Source: Kiritimatiellaceae bacterium
GTDB lineage: Bacteria; Verrucomicrobiota; Kiritimatiellia; Kiritimatiellales; Tichowtungiaceae
DNA: 64,000 nt
Direction: 5' to 3'
Assembly (NCBI GenBank): GCA_013141415.1
Contig: JABFQY010000006.1
Location: 1-64,000 of the forward strand
This document shows, one piece after another, positions 8,787 through 29,548 of the stretch. Made by a program: the position numbers and the translations under genes. Every line of letters starts with the position of its first letter. Positions within the stretch are counted from its first letter, which is position 1. The notes beneath the pieces are model-generated. The model was not told where the DNA came from. It worked only from the letters and a program-made list of their open reading frames with translations, and did not search any database.

Positions 8787-9998
8787 ATGAACAAATTCAA
8801 ACAACGCATAATAGAATTCAAAGCCCGCTTGACCTCAGTCAGTAAAGAAGAACCGCTGAACAAACTGTCGTTGGCCACAATTATTATTCTCGATCTCTTT
8901 ATCCTAACGCTAGTTTTTACCGGACTGAATGAGCACACGCAACAACTCACCACGGCTGCAGAATATATGCCGCCTGAAGCCCAGAGTATTTTTATTGATC
9001 AGGAATGGAGTTCCGCCAACCGCATTTCAGAGCTTCAGCCGCTTATTCTGTCAGACAGGAACAACTACAAGTATCGCTATGAAGGCCGTTTTGAAGAGCG
9101 AACAATCAAACTCATGCACCCGGCAAGCCGTACGTTCTACCAACAGGTAAAAACACTCTCGCAAGACAAAGAATTGCACACCCTCTTCCTAAGCCGCCAA
9201 AAATACGTTGAAGAACGGAAGAAAACCGAGATTGCCTTCGACGAGGCCAAAAGATCCTACGATACACAGCTGCTGGAAAACATCGCCAACGCTACCGCAG
9301 GCACGGCGAACGCTATCTCTACAACAGCCCGGCAATATGCACAAAAAATTGACCAGCTCAGCGGAGAAATCCGAACGACGGAACAGAAAATAAACTCTCA
9401 ACCCGACATTCAAAAACTGTGGGTTCTCATTACCCCGGATGACATTGCTCGAGAAAAAATCGTCTCCGATTACAAACATTTCCAATTCTGGTTTCCGCTT
9501 AAGGAACTCGGATGGCAACTCGTCTTTCTGCTACCTATCTTCGGCATTTTTTATGCATGGAGCGCCCGTAGCGTTAAAAATGACAATCCTATTCAGACCC
9601 TTATCGCCTCGCATCTTCTTGTGATCGCCTCTCTGCCTATCATTTTGAAAATCATTGAGCTCGTGGTTGATATTATTCCTAAGCACTTTTTTAAACACCT
9701 GTTCAATATCCTGCAAACCCTTCATCTGATGGCGCTCTGGCATTACTTCGTCATCTTCTTCGCCATAATCGTCGGTCTTTCTCTGGTTTACTTCATTCAA
9801 AGGAAGGTATTCGATAAACAGAAAATGATGCAGAAACGCCTCATGAAGAACGCCTGCATATCCTGTAATAAGCGGTTGCCACCCTGCGCAAAATTCTGCC
9901 CGTTCTGCGGGACCCGACAACTGGAAGAATGCACTGCCTGCAAACAAGAAACTCCGTCCGGCGGCCCCTGTTGCATCCATTGCGGAACATCGCGATAA
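8787..9998 (+). CDS. Membrane protein with coiled coil and C-terminal double zinc ribbon
   Basis: A 403-residue protein; ATG preceded by GGAG. One N-terminal membrane segment (about 29-50) is followed by a large helical, coiled-coil-prone domain (about 100-210). Three further hydrophobic segments follow: near [32 protein letters not shown], and [18 protein letters not shown]. The tail has four CxxC-type pairs (CISC...CPFC, CTAC...CIHC), a double zinc ribbon presumably in the cytoplasm. No enzyme motif is visible and I do not recognise a named family. Base composition looks more AT-rich than the surrounding genes, hinting at foreign origin. It stands alone between unrelated genes. Confidence 0.75.
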
Positions 9999-23317: not shown

Positions 23318-23599
23318 ATGAACCCCGATTTAAAAACAGTTAAAGCCCGTAATGACTACAAGCTCGATCTGGTTTTCGAGAATGGAGAAACCGGCGTGTT
23401 TGACTGCGCCCCCCTACTCGACTTCGGCGTATTCAGGGAACTAAACGACCGGAATTATTTCGAACAGGTTTTCGTTACATTCGGAACGGTTGCCTGGCCT
23501 AATGGGCAGGATATCTGTCCTGATACCCTTTACCTCACAGCAACCGGTAAAGAAAAGCAGCTAATGGTTGCAGAAGAACCGGAAGGATATGGAAAATGA
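23318..23599 (+). CDS. DUF2442 protein
   Basis: A 93-residue protein with the family's strand pattern: KARNDYKLDLVFENGETGVFD, PLLDFGVFRELND, FEQVFVTFGTVAWPNGQDICPDTLYL. The function of DUF2442 is not established. Co-encoded with DUF4160 upstream and overlapping hisB by 4 bases (ATGA), which implies translational coupling to a histidine biosynthesis gene. That is an unusual arrangement and may be coincidental insertion. Confidence 0.88.
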   Translation: MNPDLKTVKARNDYKLDLVFENGETGVFDCAPLLDFGVFRELNDRNYFEQVFVTFGTVAWPNGQDICPDTLYLTATGKEKQLMVAEEPEGYGK

Positions 23600-24195
23600 A
23601 ACAGCGGAAAGCAACGATACAGCGCAAAACGAACGAAACGGATATCTGCCTGTCGATCAACCTCGACGGCACCGGAACCTATTCGATTGAAACCGGCGTG
23701 CCGTTTTTCAACCATATGCTGGAACTGCTTTCCAAACACTCGCTAATCGACATGGATATCAAAGCCTCCGGCGATATTCAGGTGGACTACCACCACCTCA
23801 TCGAAGATGTCGGTCTGGCGCTCGGACAGGCTTTCAACGAAGCGCTCGGCGAACGGCGCGGCATTAACCGCTACGGCTTCTGGCTGCTTCCGATGGACGA
23901 TGCGCTCGCCAGCGCCGAAGTATCGCTCGATCTCGGCGGACGCCCCTACCTCGTCTACGAAATTTCCAATAAGAAAAATCTGATCCGCGACTTCGATACC
24001 GATATTCTCGGTCACTTCTGGCGCTCGTTCTGCGACACCGCCAAACTGAACCTTCACATCGATCAGAAATATGGCGACGATCTGCACCACGCCCACGAAG
24101 CCGTCTTCAAAGCCGTCGCCCGCGCTCTGCGCATGGCCTGCACCGCCGACGAACGCGCCCTCGATGCCCTGCCATCGAGTAAAGGGAAAATCTGA
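23596..24195 (+). CDS. hisB: Imidazoleglycerol-phosphate dehydratase
   Basis: A 199-residue Mn2+ enzyme that dehydrates imidazoleglycerol phosphate in histidine biosynthesis. It has the two duplicated histidine motifs FFNHMLELLSKHS...DYHHLIEDVGLALG and DILGHFWRSFC...DLHHAHEAVFKAVARALR. Length fits the monofunctional bacterial form, without the HAD phosphatase half of E. coli HisB. The start ATG overlaps the DUF2442 stop. No other his gene lies in the window. Confidence 0.97.
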   Translation: MKQRKATIQRKTNETDICLSINLDGTGTYSIETGVPFFNHMLELLSKHSLIDMDIKASGDIQVDYHHLIEDVGLALGQAFNEALGERRGINRYGFWLLPMDDALASAEVSLDLGGRPYLVYEISNKKNLIRDFDTDILGHFWRSFCDTAKLNLHIDQKYGDDLHHAHEAVFKAVARALRMACTADERALDALPSSKGKI

Positions 24196-24202
24196 TAGAA
24201 TG

Positions 24203-24261
24203 ATAAGTTATGAACGATAAATACTGAATAACACATTCAGCACTTGTCGTTTAGGACTTAT
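24203..24261. terminator. Bidirectional hairpin between hisB and the GIY-YIG gene
   Basis: Nested complementary segments are ATAAGT (24203-24208) with ACTTAT (24256-24261), AACGA with TCGTT, and CTGAAT with ATTCAG at the tip. It spans the stop codon of the leftward gene and lies just after hisB. Stems are interrupted and there is no long T run, so it may be a weak terminator. Confidence 0.5.
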
Positions 24262-25909
24262 CCCTCGTCGCCGACCCGCTAGCCGTGATTGTCAGATCGG
24301 CGACGGGCAATTCCAAACCATTACAGGGAGTAAGCCCTTCCTTGTCAGCGATATCGCTACCTGCAAAGGAGTCTGCCGGCTCTAGCAATAACTGCCGATT
24401 GATCCATGCATCTTTCTTCGCAGGATCTTCCGCTATTGCTTTTTCGATCAACATACTTTGTCGATACTCTTCCGCCAAGGCAGCCATCGTCCATTTAGCA
24501 ACTAACCCAAACTTCTCGACCTCTTCACGGATATGGCCAATATCAACTTTGAAAAATTCCTTTCGATAGTTAACTTTATTCATCTGCATCATAACGAAAT
24601 GCTTATGTAGTTGATTTTCCAAGGCGGGGGCATCCTCGCTGAAAATCAATGCGTGGACATCGAATTCAAAGGGCACGCTAGAGTCACCAAGCTCTTTAAT
24701 CCGATCCAATGGATCCAATCTTCTGGTCAAACCGATCTTGTAAACATGCTCTCCGAACGAGCCGATATTTGAAATAATATAGACATGACCGCGTTTTGTT
24801 TGTTGCGCCATGGATAGAGCTCTTTGACTCTTTTCTTCAGCGGCTCTTAGTCTCTCCGATAACTCAGTAAGCTGCGCCTCGTATTTCACCTTTTGCTCTT
24901 CGCTTGCTTGAGCAATTTGCGCCTGAGCTTTTTCCATCGCCTTTCTGAGTATATCCTCTTCTTTGGCCGCATCCTTCATTGCACGCTCAAAATCCCGCCG
25001 CGCTTTTTCTTCTTCCTTGATCTGCTCCTTAATCCGTCGTTGCTCTTCTTTCTCTTCCAGTTTGAGCTGCTGAGCCACCGCCGCCCATTTCAATTCATCA
25101 ATACGCGAAGCTAAATACTCGGGAGATATGGCCGCCTCCCTAAAAGCCTTTCCGTTGTGATTAACGAGGGTAAATGCATCCTTGATTTCTTGCTCCAACT
25201 TCCCTGCATTATCATTTTTGATGCGGGACAATATGGAGTCAACCTTACCGTTGAATGCATCGACAACAAAATCCATCGCCGTATCTTTTCGCTTCGCCTC
25301 AACGTACTCACAGGTTGCCGCCGTACTATTACATACCATAGATTTTGTGCGTTCACGGGCGGCCTTGAGGTTGATCCCAGCCTCTGTGAATCCGAAATCT
25401 TCTGCTAAATCATCAAGCAAACTGCGCCGTGGTATGAGATATTCATCACCGTAACCTTCGATGATATTCTTCATCGCTTTTGCTGTTTTCCCCAGTTGCT
25501 CCACGTTCTTCATGGCTTCGTACGCAGAGCCCGCTATCTCTTCCGCCTTCTTTTCAGCTTCAGCGACAATTCCCTTCGCCTGAACTATCGCAGAATCAAG
25601 ACCCCTCAATGCTTCAACTTCTAGGTTTTTTGCTCTTTGGGCGCTTTCAGATATCATAGAGGCGGCCTGAGTCTTAGCATTCTCAAGTTCAGCCTGTGCT
25701 GTGATCAGTATTTCTTTCGCCCTTCCATCGGCATCGTCAACAACCTGCCACTTTGAAAGCCGTGTATTTTCTATTTTTAATCTGGAGAGCGTGGTCCCCA
25801 GTTCAGAAGCTTTTTTTTCTGCCGCGGTTTTTTTAATCGAGATTCGAAACAGAACCGCAATAAGTATAACGATTATTACAGCGAAACTAAGCGCAAGTAT
25901 TTGATTCAT
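24251..25909 (-). CDS. Membrane-anchored DUF4041 / GIY-YIG nuclease (SNIPE-like)
   Basis: A 552-residue protein. In order: an N-terminal membrane segment (3-21), coiled coil rich in A/E/K (about 28-145), a DUF4041-type region (about 150-290), a second highly charged coiled coil (about 285-370), and a T5orf172-like GIY-YIG domain (374-440). In the last, VYI (376-378), VYKIG (389-393), R396/R397, R403 and E431 form the expected nuclease pattern. This is the architecture of SNIPE, a membrane-bound nuclease reported to cut phage DNA during injection. A potassium-channel gene ends 27 bases upstream on the same strand. Base composition is more AT-rich than in hisB. Nuclease activity is inferred. 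Confidence 0.85.
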   Translation of the reverse strand: MNQILALSFAVIIVILIAVLFRISIKKTAAEKKASELGTTLSRLKIENTRLSKWQVVDDADGRAKEILITAQAELENAKTQAASMISESAQRAKNLEVEALRGLDSAIVQAKGIVAEAEKKAEEIAGSAYEAMKNVEQLGKTAKAMKNIIEGYGDEYLIPRRSLLDDLAEDFGFTEAGINLKAARERTKSMVCNSTAATCEYVEAKRKDTAMDFVVDAFNGKVDSILSRIKNDNAGKLEQEIKDAFTLVNHNGKAFREAAISPEYLASRIDELKWAAVAQQLKLEEKEEQRRIKEQIKEEEKARRDFERAMKDAAKEEDILRKAMEKAQAQIAQASEEQKVKYEAQLTELSERLRAAEEKSQRALSMAQQTKRGHVYIISNIGSFGEHVYKIGLTRRLDPLDRIKELGDSSVPFEFDVHALIFSEDAPALENQLHKHFVMMQMNKVNYRKEFFKVDIGHIREEVEKFGLVAKWTMAALAEEYRQSMLIEKAIAEDPAKKDAWINRQLLLEPADSFAGSDIADKEGLTPCNGLELPVADLTITASGSATRDKS

Positions 25910-25936: not shown

Positions 25937-26731
25937 CTAGGGCAGTTTCTTTCCGCAGTGCGGACAACATGCTGCCCTAGATTCCTTAGACTTCTGGATT
26001 GCCTCAACAAAGCCAGCCCCGAGAATCCCGGTGGGGAGCGCAAACATACCGATACCAAGAACTGCCACTATGCTTGCACATACTTTCCCGAGGACGGTGA
26101 TTGGACACATGTCGCCGTAACCTACAGTTGTTATCGTGGTGACAGCCCACCACATAGTTGCCGGAATGCTTGAAAAGGTTTTTGGCTGTGCTGCGTTTTC
26201 GCAGCAATAAAGCAAACTGGAAGCTACAACGAGGAGAATCCCCATTAAAACCGACGTGAGAACAAGCTCCTCCTTCTTAGAGCGAAGAACGTGTCTTATC
26301 AGATTAAGGGATGAATAATAATGTCCAATCTTGGCAACACGAAGGATCCGAAAGAGACGCAGAACTCGAAGCGTCCGGAGGTCTATGCCAAGGAACGGAA
26401 GATAAAAAGGAAGAATGGATAAAAGATCGACAATAGACATCGCTCTCAAAGCGAAACGAATACGTCCAAAAATATGTCCGCTAAAACGATGATCGGCTGT
26501 GCACGACCAAAGCCTCGCAATATATTCCATAGTGAAAATACTGACCGAAAAAACCTCAAAAATATTTAAAAAAATACCCCATCGATCCTGTATGGATTGA
26601 ACAGATCCTGCAATTACAGCAAGAACGTTGAGAAAAATGAGCGATAAAATGGCTATCATAAATATTCGGCTCACAGGGTCTTCTGGTTTTGCTGCCGAAA
26701 TGATTTCCCATGTGCGTTTACGGATACTCAT
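25937..26731 (-). CDS. Voltage-gated-type potassium channel
   Basis: A 264-residue six-helix channel subunit. S1 about 23-43, S2 about 54-76, S3 about 98-114, S4 about 117-137 with regularly spaced arginines (LRTLRVLRLFRILRVAK), S5 about 155-177, the selectivity filter TTVGYGD (201-207), S6 about 213-245. The tail ends CCPHCGKKLP, a half zinc ribbon. Homotetramers would conduct K+. It lies 27 bases before the GIY-YIG gene, so the two probably form one transcript. In that setting an ion flux or membrane-potential sensor for phage entry is conceivable; ordinary K+ homeostasis is the simpler alternative. Confidence 0.9.
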   Translation of the reverse strand: MSIRKRTWEIISAAKPEDPVSRIFMIAILSLIFLNVLAVIAGSVQSIQDRWGIFLNIFEVFSVSIFTMEYIARLWSCTADHRFSGHIFGRIRFALRAMSIVDLLSILPFYLPFLGIDLRTLRVLRLFRILRVAKIGHYYSSLNLIRHVLRSKKEELVLTSVLMGILLVVASSLLYCCENAAQPKTFSSIPATMWWAVTTITTVGYGDMCPITVLGKVCASIVAVLGIGMFALPTGILGAGFVEAIQKSKESRAACCPHCGKKLP

Positions 26732-26809
26732 GATTGTCCTTTATTCACGTGTACGTTGTGGAATGCCACACAATACGAGGTTGAAACTGACAAGGAAACT
26801 AAATTAGAT

Positions 26810-26910
26810 TCATTTCCCCGCCAACTGCCCGCAGGCGGCGGCGATGTCGTCGCCGAGGGAATAACGCAGCGTCACCTTGAACCCGGCGCGTTTCAGCTCA
26901 TCGCCGACGC
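26810..26910 (-). pseudogene. Duplicate 3' end of rlmN (integration-site copy)
   Basis: Read leftward the segment encodes DELKRAGFKVTLRYSLGDD followed by IAAACGQLAGK and a stop at 26810-26812. This equals the last ~30 residues of the complete rlmN at 28402. The nucleotide match is only about 85%, with nearly all differences silent. It has no start and sits directly behind the abiEii stop. It is best explained as the displaced rlmN end left when DNA joined the rlmN 3' end. Confidence 0.85.
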
Positions 26911-26916
26911 GGGGCT

Positions 26917-27780
26917 TTAAATTGCCTGTCTGATCAAGGCTGCCTGATCCTGTAAATTAAGCAGCAAAAGTTTCCAGAATTCCGGCTGTCCAAGCATTTC
27001 GCGAACGTCTGTAGCAGGAAGAAATCTCTCCATCTCTTTGCGGAAGTCCTGCCGGTGTTCCGGATTATTCCCCAAGTCATCCAACCGGCTGAGCAGAACG
27101 GATAAAAACTCCTGCCGGAGACGCTGGCGGTCGTCGAGCTTGCATAACAACAGCGGGATATCCAGACGGATCCCCTGTCGATCCAGCCAGAGCATGTCCC
27201 ACAGATCACGATACTTGACCCGGTTGGGACGAAACGCCAGAGCAACCCATTTGTCGGCGAGAATTTCCTCGCGGGTCTGCGCCTGTAAGATCAGCCCTTC
27301 GGTTCCCATGTTCACGCCGTAAAAGTTGCGTAGCATTGCAGGTCGCGGCTGGTGACTTGGCACGGCGCAAATATCAATGTGAATGCGCTGTGCAGGAAGG
27401 TGCTTCGTGCCCGGACGGGTCTGAATGCGTACCTTCCAGGTGCACACATTTCCCTCCTCCCGTTCCGGATCGCTGACATCAACAGGCAGGCCGTACTTGT
27501 TGAGAAGAGTTTTTTCCAGCAGCGGTTTCAGTCCCGCCAGCCGGGCAGGATCGAATCTGCTCCCTCCGGCAAAGTCCAGATCTTCGCTCAGCCGGGGCGA
27601 ACCGTAACAGGCGCGCAGACAGGTTCCTCCGATAAACGTCAGGCCCGTCAACAGTCCGTTGCGGCTCATTTCGCGCAGAATGTCGTGATGCAGCAGTTCT
27701 TTCTCAAGAGCCGGACGTACCGTTCCGAGGGCCTGCTCCGATTGCATTGCCTGTTCCACCAGCCGATCAAACAGATTCAT
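26917..27780 (-). CDS. AbiEii-type nucleotidyltransferase toxin
   Basis: A 287-residue protein of the nucleotidyltransferase AbiEii/AbiGii family, the toxin of type IV (AbiE) systems. The active-site signature is at residues 51-70: GGTCLRACYGSPRLSEDLDF, with D67 and D69 as probable metal ligands. A C-terminal helical region contains the IQTRPG/KHLPAQRIHIDICAVP strand and the ADKWVALAFRPNRVKYRDLWD motif common to the family. Its start overlaps the upstream antitoxin gene by 14 bases. The last codon abuts the rlmN tail relic. Such toxins modify tRNA or GTP pools in studied cases; the target here is not known. Confidence 0.9.
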   Translation of the reverse strand: MNLFDRLVEQAMQSEQALGTVRPALEKELLHHDILREMSRNGLLTGLTFIGGTCLRACYGSPRLSEDLDFAGGSRFDPARLAGLKPLLEKTLLNKYGLPVDVSDPEREEGNVCTWKVRIQTRPGTKHLPAQRIHIDICAVPSHQPRPAMLRNFYGVNMGTEGLILQAQTREEILADKWVALAFRPNRVKYRDLWDMLWLDRQGIRLDIPLLLCKLDDRQRLRQEFLSVLLSRLDDLGNNPEHRQDFRKEMERFLPATDVREMLGQPEFWKLLLLNLQDQAALIRQAI

Positions 27781-28315
27781 TCGCCACCTCCTGATTCACC
27801 AGTCCGGTATCTCTACGGGTTGCCCGCATATCTCGCAACGCCAACGGTACCGATGCACGCCACAGATGGAACCGTGGATCGTAGGTCAGCAACGGTGTCA
27901 GCTCTTCGGCCTTTCTGCGGGTGTGCACAAACTCAATACTTCCATATGCCCCGCAGGCCGTAACACCGGATCGGCCCGAGGACATCAGAGTAAGACGGTT
28001 CACGGGAATTTGTGAGATCACTCCCGCTTCGCTCAACACCGTTTCCAAACTCAGATAATTGAAAAAACCAGCGCGCAGGGAAGCGGCCGTATGCCCTAAA
28101 AGATCACTACCGCGAAGGGTTGAATCAGGCAGAATATAAATTCCCCGGCAGACCCGGATTAGATCACCTCTGCGTTCCAGCCGCGTCACCACTGACTTGA
28201 AAGCGCCTTCCCCGTGTCCCGGGAGCAAAGCCCGCAGGTCTGACAAAGCAAACACCCGTGCCTTTGCATCAGCAAAGTCCCGCAAGCTCCTGATTAACTC
28301 AAACATGGGTTGCAT
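27767..28315 (-). CDS. AbiEi-type antitoxin / transcriptional regulator
   Basis: A 182-residue protein. The N-terminal winged helix (about 15-70: FALSDLRALLPGHG...VVTRLERRGDLIRVCRGIYIL) precedes the AbiEi antitoxin domain, with LSLETVLSEAGVISQIPVNRLTLMSSGRSG and EFVHT. AbiEi proteins repress their own promoter and neutralise AbiEii. The start at 28315 gives MQPMFELI; the second Met (28306) is an alternative, since predicted transcription begins nearly at the codon. The operon order antitoxin-toxin and the overlap are typical. Confidence 0.88.
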   Translation of the reverse strand: MQPMFELIRSLRDFADAKARVFALSDLRALLPGHGEGAFKSVVTRLERRGDLIRVCRGIYILPDSTLRGSDLLGHTAASLRAGFFNYLSLETVLSEAGVISQIPVNRLTLMSSGRSGVTACGAYGSIEFVHTRRKAEELTPLLTYDPRFHLWRASVPLALRDMRATRRDTGLVNQEVANESV

Positions 28316-28319
28316 CGGT

Positions 28320-28351
28320 GTTTAGTGTACATTAAGTTCCGTTTAGTGCAA
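28320..28351 (-). promoter_or_regulatory. abiE promoter with overlapping operator repeats
   Basis: On the minus strand TTGCAC (28346-28351) and TACACT (28324-28329) with a 16-base spacer form a promoter. Two direct copies of GTTTAGTG (plus-strand 28320-28327 and 28341-28348) start exactly 21 bases apart, two helical turns, each covering one promoter element. They are the natural candidates for cooperative AbiEi binding. Outer GGTTGCA/TGCAACC arms also make the site symmetric. Confidence 0.6.
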
Positions 28352-28401
28352 CCTTTTGTATAGAAATAACAGCCTTGAATTGCCTCTTACCCTTTCGTTT
28401 T

Positions 28402-29382
28402 TCATTTCCCCGCCAGCTGGCCGCAGGCGGCGGCGATGTCGTCGCCGAGGGAGTAGCGCAGTGTTACTTTAAATCCGGCGCGCTTCAGTTCATCGGCGAA
28501 GGCTTTACGGGTCTCTTCGGAAACCGGTTCGAACTGTGCGCCGGGGTGCGGATTAAACTGAATCAGGTTGATGTGCGCTTTCGTGCCGTGCAGAAAGTCG
28601 ATCAAAGCGGCGGCATCTTCCGGCCCGTCGTTGATGCCCTTCAACAAAAGAAGCTCAACCATAAACTCCCCGACCTCCGGCAAAACAGATTTCAGCTTTT
28701 CCAGCGTATAAACTTTGGCAACCGGCATAATCCGCTCGCGGACTTCCTGCCGCGCGCTGTGCAGGCTGAGCGCCAGCCGGATGGTTGGAAACCGTTCTGA
28801 AAAACGCACCATCGCATCCGGAATGCCGACGGTAGAAACCATCAGGTGGTTGTCGGAGAGATTGAAAAACCGCGGATCGCGCAGGATTTCCAGACATTGG
28901 AAAAGGTTCGCTTCGTTGCGGAGCGGCTCGCCCATGCCCATCACTACGACGTTGCGAAGCGTCCGCCCTTCTTCGCGCAAAAGCCGCTTGGCGAGCAAAA
29001 CCTGATCGAGCATTTCGTCGGCGGTCAGGTTGCGGATGAAACCGAGCTTACCGGTGGCGCAAAACTGACAGTCGGCGGCGCAGCCGATCTGCGATGAAAT
29101 ACAGAGGCTTGTCCGGCCCGAGGCGATCCGTAGAATCACGGCCTCGATCTTGTGTCCGTCAGCTGTCCGCAGGACCATTTTGGTTGCGCCGTCGCGCTGC
29201 GAGTCGTGCCGCTCTATTGTTTCCGATGCGTGGAAAACAAGTTGCCCAGTCAGCTCCGGTGCTTTCTCCAGACATTCTTCGAGCGGCAGTGCCTTCTTGA
29301 AAAAAGCGTTGCGGAAAAGCTTCAGACGGTGCGGTTCCCGGCAAAGGGTTTCCAATGTCTGAATGTCGTACACAGAATTCAT
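28402..29382 (-). CDS. rlmN: 23S rRNA / tRNA (adenine-2)-methyltransferase
   Basis: A radical-SAM enzyme that methylates A2503 of 23S rRNA and A37 of some tRNAs. Motif CAADCQFC (CX3CX2C) binds the 4Fe-4S cluster; the GMGEPLRN and LSLHSARQEVRERIMP blocks and the C-terminal SLGDDIAAACGQLAGK complete the family. The start is uncertain: ATG 29382 (MNSVYDIQTL, 326 aa) was chosen as closest to family length, while 29391 and 29409 also remain in frame. Its last ~100 bases are repeated at 26810-26910 beyond the abiE genes. Genomic islands commonly use the 3' ends of conserved genes this way. Confidence 0.93.
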   Translation of the reverse strand: MNSVYDIQTLETLCREPHRLKLFRNAFFKKALPLEECLEKAPELTGQLVFHASETIERHDSQRDGATKMVLRTADGHKIEAVILRIASGRTSLCISSQIGCAADCQFCATGKLGFIRNLTADEMLDQVLLAKRLLREEGRTLRNVVVMGMGEPLRNEANLFQCLEILRDPRFFNLSDNHLMVSTVGIPDAMVRFSERFPTIRLALSLHSARQEVRERIMPVAKVYTLEKLKSVLPEVGEFMVELLLLKGINDGPEDAAALIDFLHGTKAHINLIQFNPHPGAQFEPVSEETRKAFADELKRAGFKVTLRYSLGDDIAAACGQLAGK

Positions 29383-29424
29383 TTTAACCATGGAATACAC
29401 CGAAGACACTGAACAGGAACGTTT

Positions 29425-29500
29425 ACCAGCGAATGAATAAATCTACGAATGAATCGTTATTCAAAATCCCCGTATTCGTAAATTTTATTCATTCGCTGGT
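29425..29500. terminator. 76-base perfect-stem hairpin between rlmN and topoisomerase genes
   Basis: ACCAGCGAATGAATAAA (29425-29441) pairs perfectly with 29484-29500, and TACGAAT (29444-29450) with ATTCGTA (29474-29480). This is a very stable stem of 17 plus 7 bp. It follows the leftward parC stop and precedes rlmN, so it may end the topoisomerase message. There is no T run, so a repeat element is the alternative. Confidence 0.55.
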
Positions 29501-29548
29501 CAAAATTCTTTTGGCTCCCTCAGCCTTTCGAAGCGCCCGCACACCTCT

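Follow-up and report, generated by a model that had tools for sequence, protein, structure and literature searches.

Displaced copies of gene 3′ ends frame accessory genes at rlmN and other loci in the genome of a Kiritimatiellaceae bacterium

Introduction

How do single accessory genes, toxin-antitoxin and defence genes among them, enter a genome without an integrase or transposon? Such entry is mostly inferred afterwards. The question is raised by a 64,000-nt stretch of DNA from a Kiritimatiellaceae bacterium (GenBank assembly GCA_013141415.1, contig JABFQY010000006.1, positions 1 to 64,000 of the forward strand), the whole of which is referred to here as the window. In it the 3′ end of rlmN is duplicated while rlmN itself stays uninterrupted, and the two copies enclose a pair of abiE genes. 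Analysis of the source genome, a 2.2-Mb draft in 7 contigs, and of its relatives confirmed that the rlmN observation is one of a series, for which the chemistry is known and the density unusual. The inserts probably derive from DNA fragments of related species that were anchored by homology in the 3′ end of a gene and closed illegitimately, without an integrase.

The duplicated rlmN 3′ end

The intact rlmN gene (rlmN1; 28402..29409, minus strand) encodes a protein of 335 aa, RlmN1, with a Radical_SAM domain (PF04055), and has orthologues in 13 of the 13 other genomes of the genus. Its 3′ end (copy A, 28401-28499, minus strand) recurs on the same strand as copy B (26809-26907), which comprises the last ~32 codons and the stop. 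Over 99 nt the copies are 88% identical and were assigned to one family by the repeat search, in agreement with the first-pass annotation, whose coordinates were off by a base or two at most. Among direct repeats of at least 45 nt and more than 75% identity this pair is the sole one in the window, the other repeat family listed having copies only 62-71% alike. As self-BLAST recovers the pair with E = 6e-29, the repeat cannot be a product of chance. No second full rlmN was found at 26809-26907, where the similarity is limited to the tail. A search of the source genome with the tail peptide returned the intact tail, the displaced copy and weaker matches at rlmN paralogues.

The difference between the copies, put earlier at roughly 15% of the DNA and described as nearly all silent, amounts to 12%. 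Its silent character was borne out by 11 synonymous changes and a single nonsynonymous one over 31 codons, with 1, 1 and 10 mismatches at codon positions 1, 2 and 3, respectively.

Between the tails lie abiEi (27767..28315, minus strand; AbiEi_4, PF13338; PADLOC AbiEi, 3.7e-56) and abiEii (26917..27780, minus strand; AbiEii, PF08843; PADLOC AbiEii, 9.7e-100), coding for a predicted antitoxin and a predicted nucleotidyltransferase toxin, and nothing else. Side by side, the two genes have the arrangement of a putative AbiE (type IV) toxin-antitoxin system. The PADLOC match of AbiEii reaches residue 282 of 287, and the gene ends with its stop codon where the displaced tail adjoins. The distance from the AbiEii stop (26917) to this tail is 10 nt, and that from the AbiEi start (28315) to the rlmN stop is 86 nt; therefore, the repeat frames exactly abiEi and abiEii. 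No integrase lies between the tails, in line with the first-pass annotation.

The insertion site in related genomes

The nearest rlmN genes among named records belong to Pontiellaceae, Kiritimatiellales and Verrucomicrobia drafts. Within the genus the order gyrA, rotamase, hisB, rlmN, parC, parE is found in most stretches long enough, with hisB and rlmN convergent; in the window hisB, which in relatives is the native neighbour of rlmN, occupies 23596..24195 on the plus strand. The rlmN-hisB interval could be read, both genes lying inside the fetched stretch, in 9 of 14 genomes of the genus, that of the window included; G001, G005, G006, G007 and G011, with fetched stretches without both genes, are outside this count (G, C and L numbers are our labels for genomes, contigs and loci). 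Empty sites, which the first-pass annotation had proposed as a check, are present in five of the nine, where the rlmN stop is separated from the end of hisB by ~70 nt (G013), 13 nt (G009), 84 nt (G003), 57 nt (G012) and 13 nt (G010). The interval is occupied in the window (4.2 kb), G002 (2.1 kb), G008 (0.6 kb) and G004 (0.4 kb), and a second rlmN tail is found there in the window alone. By eye, the spacer beside hisB in the window looks like that of G013, and no deletion is seen at rlmN.

A supposed second rlmN case in G027 proved to be merely two contigs overlapping by ~140 nt, and the tail matches in G117, G148 and G340 are not free fragments, each being situated in a longer frame, at the end of a contig or next to a run of N. 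In another family of the class, an RlmN-like tail fragment lies behind apparently non-coding sequence (L104:6659-6742; G223 C114).

Displaced tails at other genes

A scan of the source genome for displaced 3′ and 5′ gene ends covered 1.16 Mb (52%) with 1097 open reading frames (ORFs); cases were accepted by eye, and the control sets are small. It yielded eight displaced tails behind intact genes and one displaced head (L142, 62 nt, largely upstream sequence). Besides the 99-nt tail of rlmN1 (88%) behind abiEi-abiEii, the series includes the tail of rlmN2 (C2; 128 nt, 84%), which was found by the rlmN tail search 1.2 kb downstream of its gene, behind the single membrane-protein gene P0008, a cargo without a Pfam family above the cut-off. 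The others belong to a pgmB-like HAD gene (211 nt, 92%) with an AAA/DUF4143 ATPase as cargo, another HAD gene (87 nt, 87%) with an FAD oxidoreductase, leuS (270 nt, 95%) with a 202-aa protein without a Pfam match, mnmA (45 nt, 96%) with a PNPOx-like gene, and a HEAT-repeat gene (92 nt, 92%) with a TPR protein. The weakest of the eight tails kept is that of an aminotransferase gene (L211; 47 nt, 89%, one indel), behind a 111-aa frame that is antitoxin-like in appearance and has no Pfam match. The name pgmB and others like it were given from a reading of the sequence plus the HAD match.

At these eight loci the displaced tail begins 0.6-1.5 kb past the stop of the gene, and each insert consists of one gene or gene pair. 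Every tail occurs in exactly two copies in the fetched sequence of this genome, overlapping stretches aside; in four orthologues of rlmN2 the tail is present only once. The tails vary by gene and in length, from about 45 to 280 nt, and their ratio to heads is 8:1 (sign test, 0.039). Neither these eight loci nor two loci of the congener G008 contain an integrase or other recombinase between the tails. Of the k-mers in the shortest tail, none occurs in more than 2 of the 10 tails, a limited test which weak or structural motifs escape, as do motifs that this tail lacks. Since seven other genes of this genome and two genes of G008 have the same layout as rlmN, displaced tails are a general process at gene 3′ ends. 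The proposal that rlmN is the target site is accordingly not upheld, and integration specific to rlmN was dropped in view of the same scar at six non-rlmN genes.

Other matches in the source genome were rejected as tandem paralogues (L148, L208, L210), heads of two related genes (L147), a paralogue at 76% (L200), a small gene in tandem copies (L201), a tandem repeat at a type I modification gene with copies ~100 nt apart (L214), a multi-copy repeat together with a weak L151/L099 pair (L150, L151), or repeats within a single reading frame (L146, L149, L154); two more L099 matches and weak matches in L157, L172 and L205 were dropped by eye. At L214:2487-2700 the 3′ end of the type I modification gene, an N6_Mtase and Methylase_S fusion, is tandemly repeated in three partial copies with a palindromic spacer. 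The repeat at L099:8543-8658 and 8944-9058 (116 nt, 92%) is REP-like and has weaker partial copies elsewhere in the genome.

Displaced tails in related genomes

Two displaced tails were found among 151 ORFs of G008, one of a histidine kinase gene (100 nt, 84%) behind a Bro-N gene resembling dinD, and one of mnmA (70 nt, 89%) behind a SOUL gene. The mnmA tail matched 40 of 43 genomes of the order, and displaced copies were present in the source genome (G000), G008 and G007 only, the last known from coordinates only; the spacing differs among the three. Because both cargo and tail length differ between G000 and G008, the mnmA events in these two genomes are independent or remodelled. A 185-nt repeat of G008 (L220, copies 8 kb apart), which resembles a 5′ end on the opposite strand, is excluded, and a 76% head match in L220 is also outside the count.

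No acceptable displaced tail was found in G009 (361 ORFs) or G013 (174 ORFs), the matches there being judged paralogues, repeats or spurious ORFs (four inspected). At L232:4100-5120 of G013, 75-nt repeats (84%) surround a pcm-like methyltransferase gene, with no convincing ORF end attached. The difference between the source genome plus G008 (10/1248 ORFs) and G009 plus G013 (0/535) is modest (Fisher test, 0.038), more of G008 having been fetched once its first case had been seen.

The Escherichia coli K-12 control (147 ORFs) contained a single case, icd, the tail of which lies 15 kb off behind e14 and is 94.5% identical at the protein level; it was seen with a 20-kb limit and missed with a 6-kb limit. 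The integrase gene intE is annotated inside e14, so that a scar of this kind can also be the work of an integrase. No displaced tail was found in 47 ORFs of Neisseria gonorrhoeae. Controls of this size do not allow the genus to be called special. Within the plasmid collection, the N. gonorrhoeae record NZ_CP119140.1 (2.17 Mb, 12 annotated features) looks like a misfiled chromosome.

Divergence of the tail pairs

If a copy is made in place and one of the copies then evolves neutrally, the pairwise omega (ratio of nonsynonymous to synonymous divergence) is expected to be at least 0.5. The rlmN1 pair has an omega of 0.021. Nine pairs, seven from the source genome and two from G008, the aminotransferase being omitted for its indel, together have 71.8 synonymous differences over 258.8 sites and 28.2 nonsynonymous differences over 779.2 sites, which corresponds to an omega of 0.13. 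With the differences treated as independent, 28 of 100 are nonsynonymous versus 60 expected for an omega of 0.5 (P = 8e-11). These values indicate that the divergence mostly arose under selection on both copies, in separate genomes, and agree with the first-pass view of the tails as diverged alleles, not a dead copy decayed in place. The looser pairs, HAD (0.41), mnmA (0.31) and HEAT (0.33), would fit a silent copy that has decayed since.

Other features of the rlmN-hisB interval

In the window an ion channel gene (25937..26731, minus strand; PF00520) adjoins the displaced tail; it is absent from the rlmN-hisB interval of the fetched relatives. A T5orf172/DUF4041 gene (24251..25909, minus strand), the best PADLOC match of which is PD-Lambda-1 (5e-113), is extra relative to the empty sites and lies two genes away from abiE. 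Because these two genes are also located there, the interval is a small accessory and defence spot. At 29417-29508, directly upstream of the rlmN start, there is an inverted repeat of 25 nt, 88% complementary, with arms 42 nt apart.

Origin of the inserts

The proposed event would start from a short DNA fragment of a related species, carrying the end of its rlmN plus the genes behind it and so bringing abiE. One part of the fragment would pair by homology with the rlmN tail of the recipient, and the other end would be joined illegitimately, giving an uninterrupted rlmN, the cargo and, on the far side, a second, silent rlmN tail. This could happen by two routes: (a) the ends of the fragment may be joined into a circle, followed by one RecA-type crossover in the tail, or (b) homology-facilitated illegitimate recombination (HFIR) may place the far junction inside the tail of the recipient. 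Many genes of this genome, and others in one congener or more, would have been subject to the same process, and the scars would be protected from loop-out by repeats that are short and diverged. As a single crossover predicts, one end of the homologous region is directly repeated on either side of the insert. HFIR predicts a microhomology of 3-10 bp at the illegitimate junction; when the junctions were read by eye, without statistics, the sequence TAAAGCC was seen to match at rlmN, offset by 4 nt. ComEC is encoded in the genome and, being common, lends weak support to DNA uptake. When the sites differing between the two copies were compared with relatives, rlmN2 gave a hint of a reciprocal ancestry switch in the expected direction (p = 0.055). 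This comparison chooses neither the single crossover nor HFIR; the data do not separate routes (a) and (b), and no firm choice is made here.

Several observations weigh against such an origin. The same comparison for rlmN1 points in the opposite direction (p = 0.067), contrary to the single-crossover prediction, and in both rlmN1 and rlmN2 the intact copy is at least as similar to most relatives as the displaced one, contrary to plain HFIR with a native displaced tail. An unbroken donor order of gene and cargo was not found within the order for abiE, PNPOx or SOUL: relatives of AbiEii in G036 and G006 are on contigs other than that of rlmN, and those of PNPOx and SOUL do not adjoin mnmA. P0008 has no relative within the order. 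Furthermore, the accepted cargo is always a whole gene or pair, which is tidier than random joining predicts unless selected, and the 8:1 excess of tails is not predicted by the model alone; one-gene inserts and this excess call for selection or an unknown directing system.

A site-specific integrase could also have inserted islands carrying a replacement 3′ end, as at icd, and have later been lost or have acted from elsewhere. The anatomy is that of icd/e14 with intE inside, and two of the genes concerned are rlmN paralogues with a similar C-terminus. Such an origin is nevertheless unlikely, as the scars occur at eight genes with tails of differing length and no common word, and the short gaps hold an integrase at no locus. 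Moreover, no short tail-only phage attachment site (attP) was recognised in phage and plasmid records, where annotated matches are whole rlmN- or cfr-like genes and many phage records are unannotated. It appears unlikely too that the genus possesses a dedicated integrase-free route in which a protein-neutral copy of a core-gene tail serves as landing patch and any gene end will do; if true, the genome would grow by tail-anchored single-gene cassettes. Rather improbable is an undescribed gene-insertion system of the genus by which lone genes are placed behind core genes together with a patch that restores the gene end. The 8:1 excess of tails over heads, inserts that each contain a whole gene or pair, and displaced mnmA tails in three congeners would suit it, but no candidate enzyme was found, and selection can account for the 3′-end bias because a displaced tail is silent whereas a displaced head may not be.

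As the assembly is a draft with genuine tandem paralogues elsewhere (the rejected L148, L208 and L210), one might consider leftovers of tandem paralogues once present at full length, or a chimeric assembly of two strains. Both are highly improbable, since tails alone remain, each below ~280 nt, at eight genes, the pattern is shared by the congeneric drafts G008 and G007, and a strain chimera would require an overlap-free join. Finally, target duplication in place, where a staggered cut leaves a long repeat of the target and the dead copy then decays, can hardly be the source. Restriction-modification genes are reported to come with long target duplications, and the HAD, mnmA and HEAT pairs alone would not exclude it; a dead copy would, however, gain nonsynonymous changes, which is contradicted by the pooled omega and its P value, and the rlmN1, rlmN2, pgmB, leuS and G008 mnmA pairs disfavour it individually.

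If homology-anchored fragments are indeed the source, displaced silent tails are a readable scar, which marks the borders of an insert, shows a relative as the source of the DNA and can be counted. Should the density (8 in half a genome) hold, this route of gene gain would be measurable across bacteria and its 3′-end preference testable.

Comparison with known systems

The mechanism is probably already known. The displaced-tail pattern was not found described in the literature searched, subscription journals being mostly outside reach; what is new to us is how densely natural scars occur, that their divergence is silent at the protein level, and that mnmA is affected repeatedly. The closest laboratory parallel is the conjugation of a linearised plasmid into E. 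coli, for which Amarir-Bouhram, Goin and Petit (2011, PMC3240628) report partial lacZ duplications in 56 of 60 clones, of 109-950 bp in 14 sequenced clones, and explain them by re-circularisation and a single crossover; HFIR proper accounted for 4/60 clones. As at the loci described here, the re-circularised fragment leaves the target gene partly duplicated around foreign DNA, by one homologous and one illegitimate event. That system, as presented, relied on laboratory conjugation with a cloned lacZ fragment and a marker for selection, whereas the scars found here are natural, diverged, fixed and present at many loci of a single genome.

HFIR has been described for Streptococcus pneumoniae, Acinetobacter baylyi and Pseudomonas stutzeri (PMC3240628, PMC2884548), with inserts of ~1 kb anchored on one side only, as here. 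Its products are reported as generally having a deletion of similar size (PMC3240628, PMC2884548), whereas in the present cases a gene end is duplicated. The icd gene of E. coli K-12 likewise combines an intact gene with a displaced 3′-end copy beyond the insert, but the insert is a 15-kb prophage with its own integrase at one site. In the C-terminal displacement of Rhs proteins (Jackson et al. 2009, PMC2935791) and the displacement of type VI secretion system effectors (Kirchberger et al. 2017, PMC5361080), acquired DNA also pushes gene 3′ ends downstream, and homologous recombination through a circular intermediate or HFIR is proposed in these accounts. There the variable C-terminus of polymorphic toxins is itself exchanged (PMC2935791, PMC5361080), whereas here the tails are those of conserved housekeeping genes, the protein stays nearly the same, and the novelty is the neighbouring gene.

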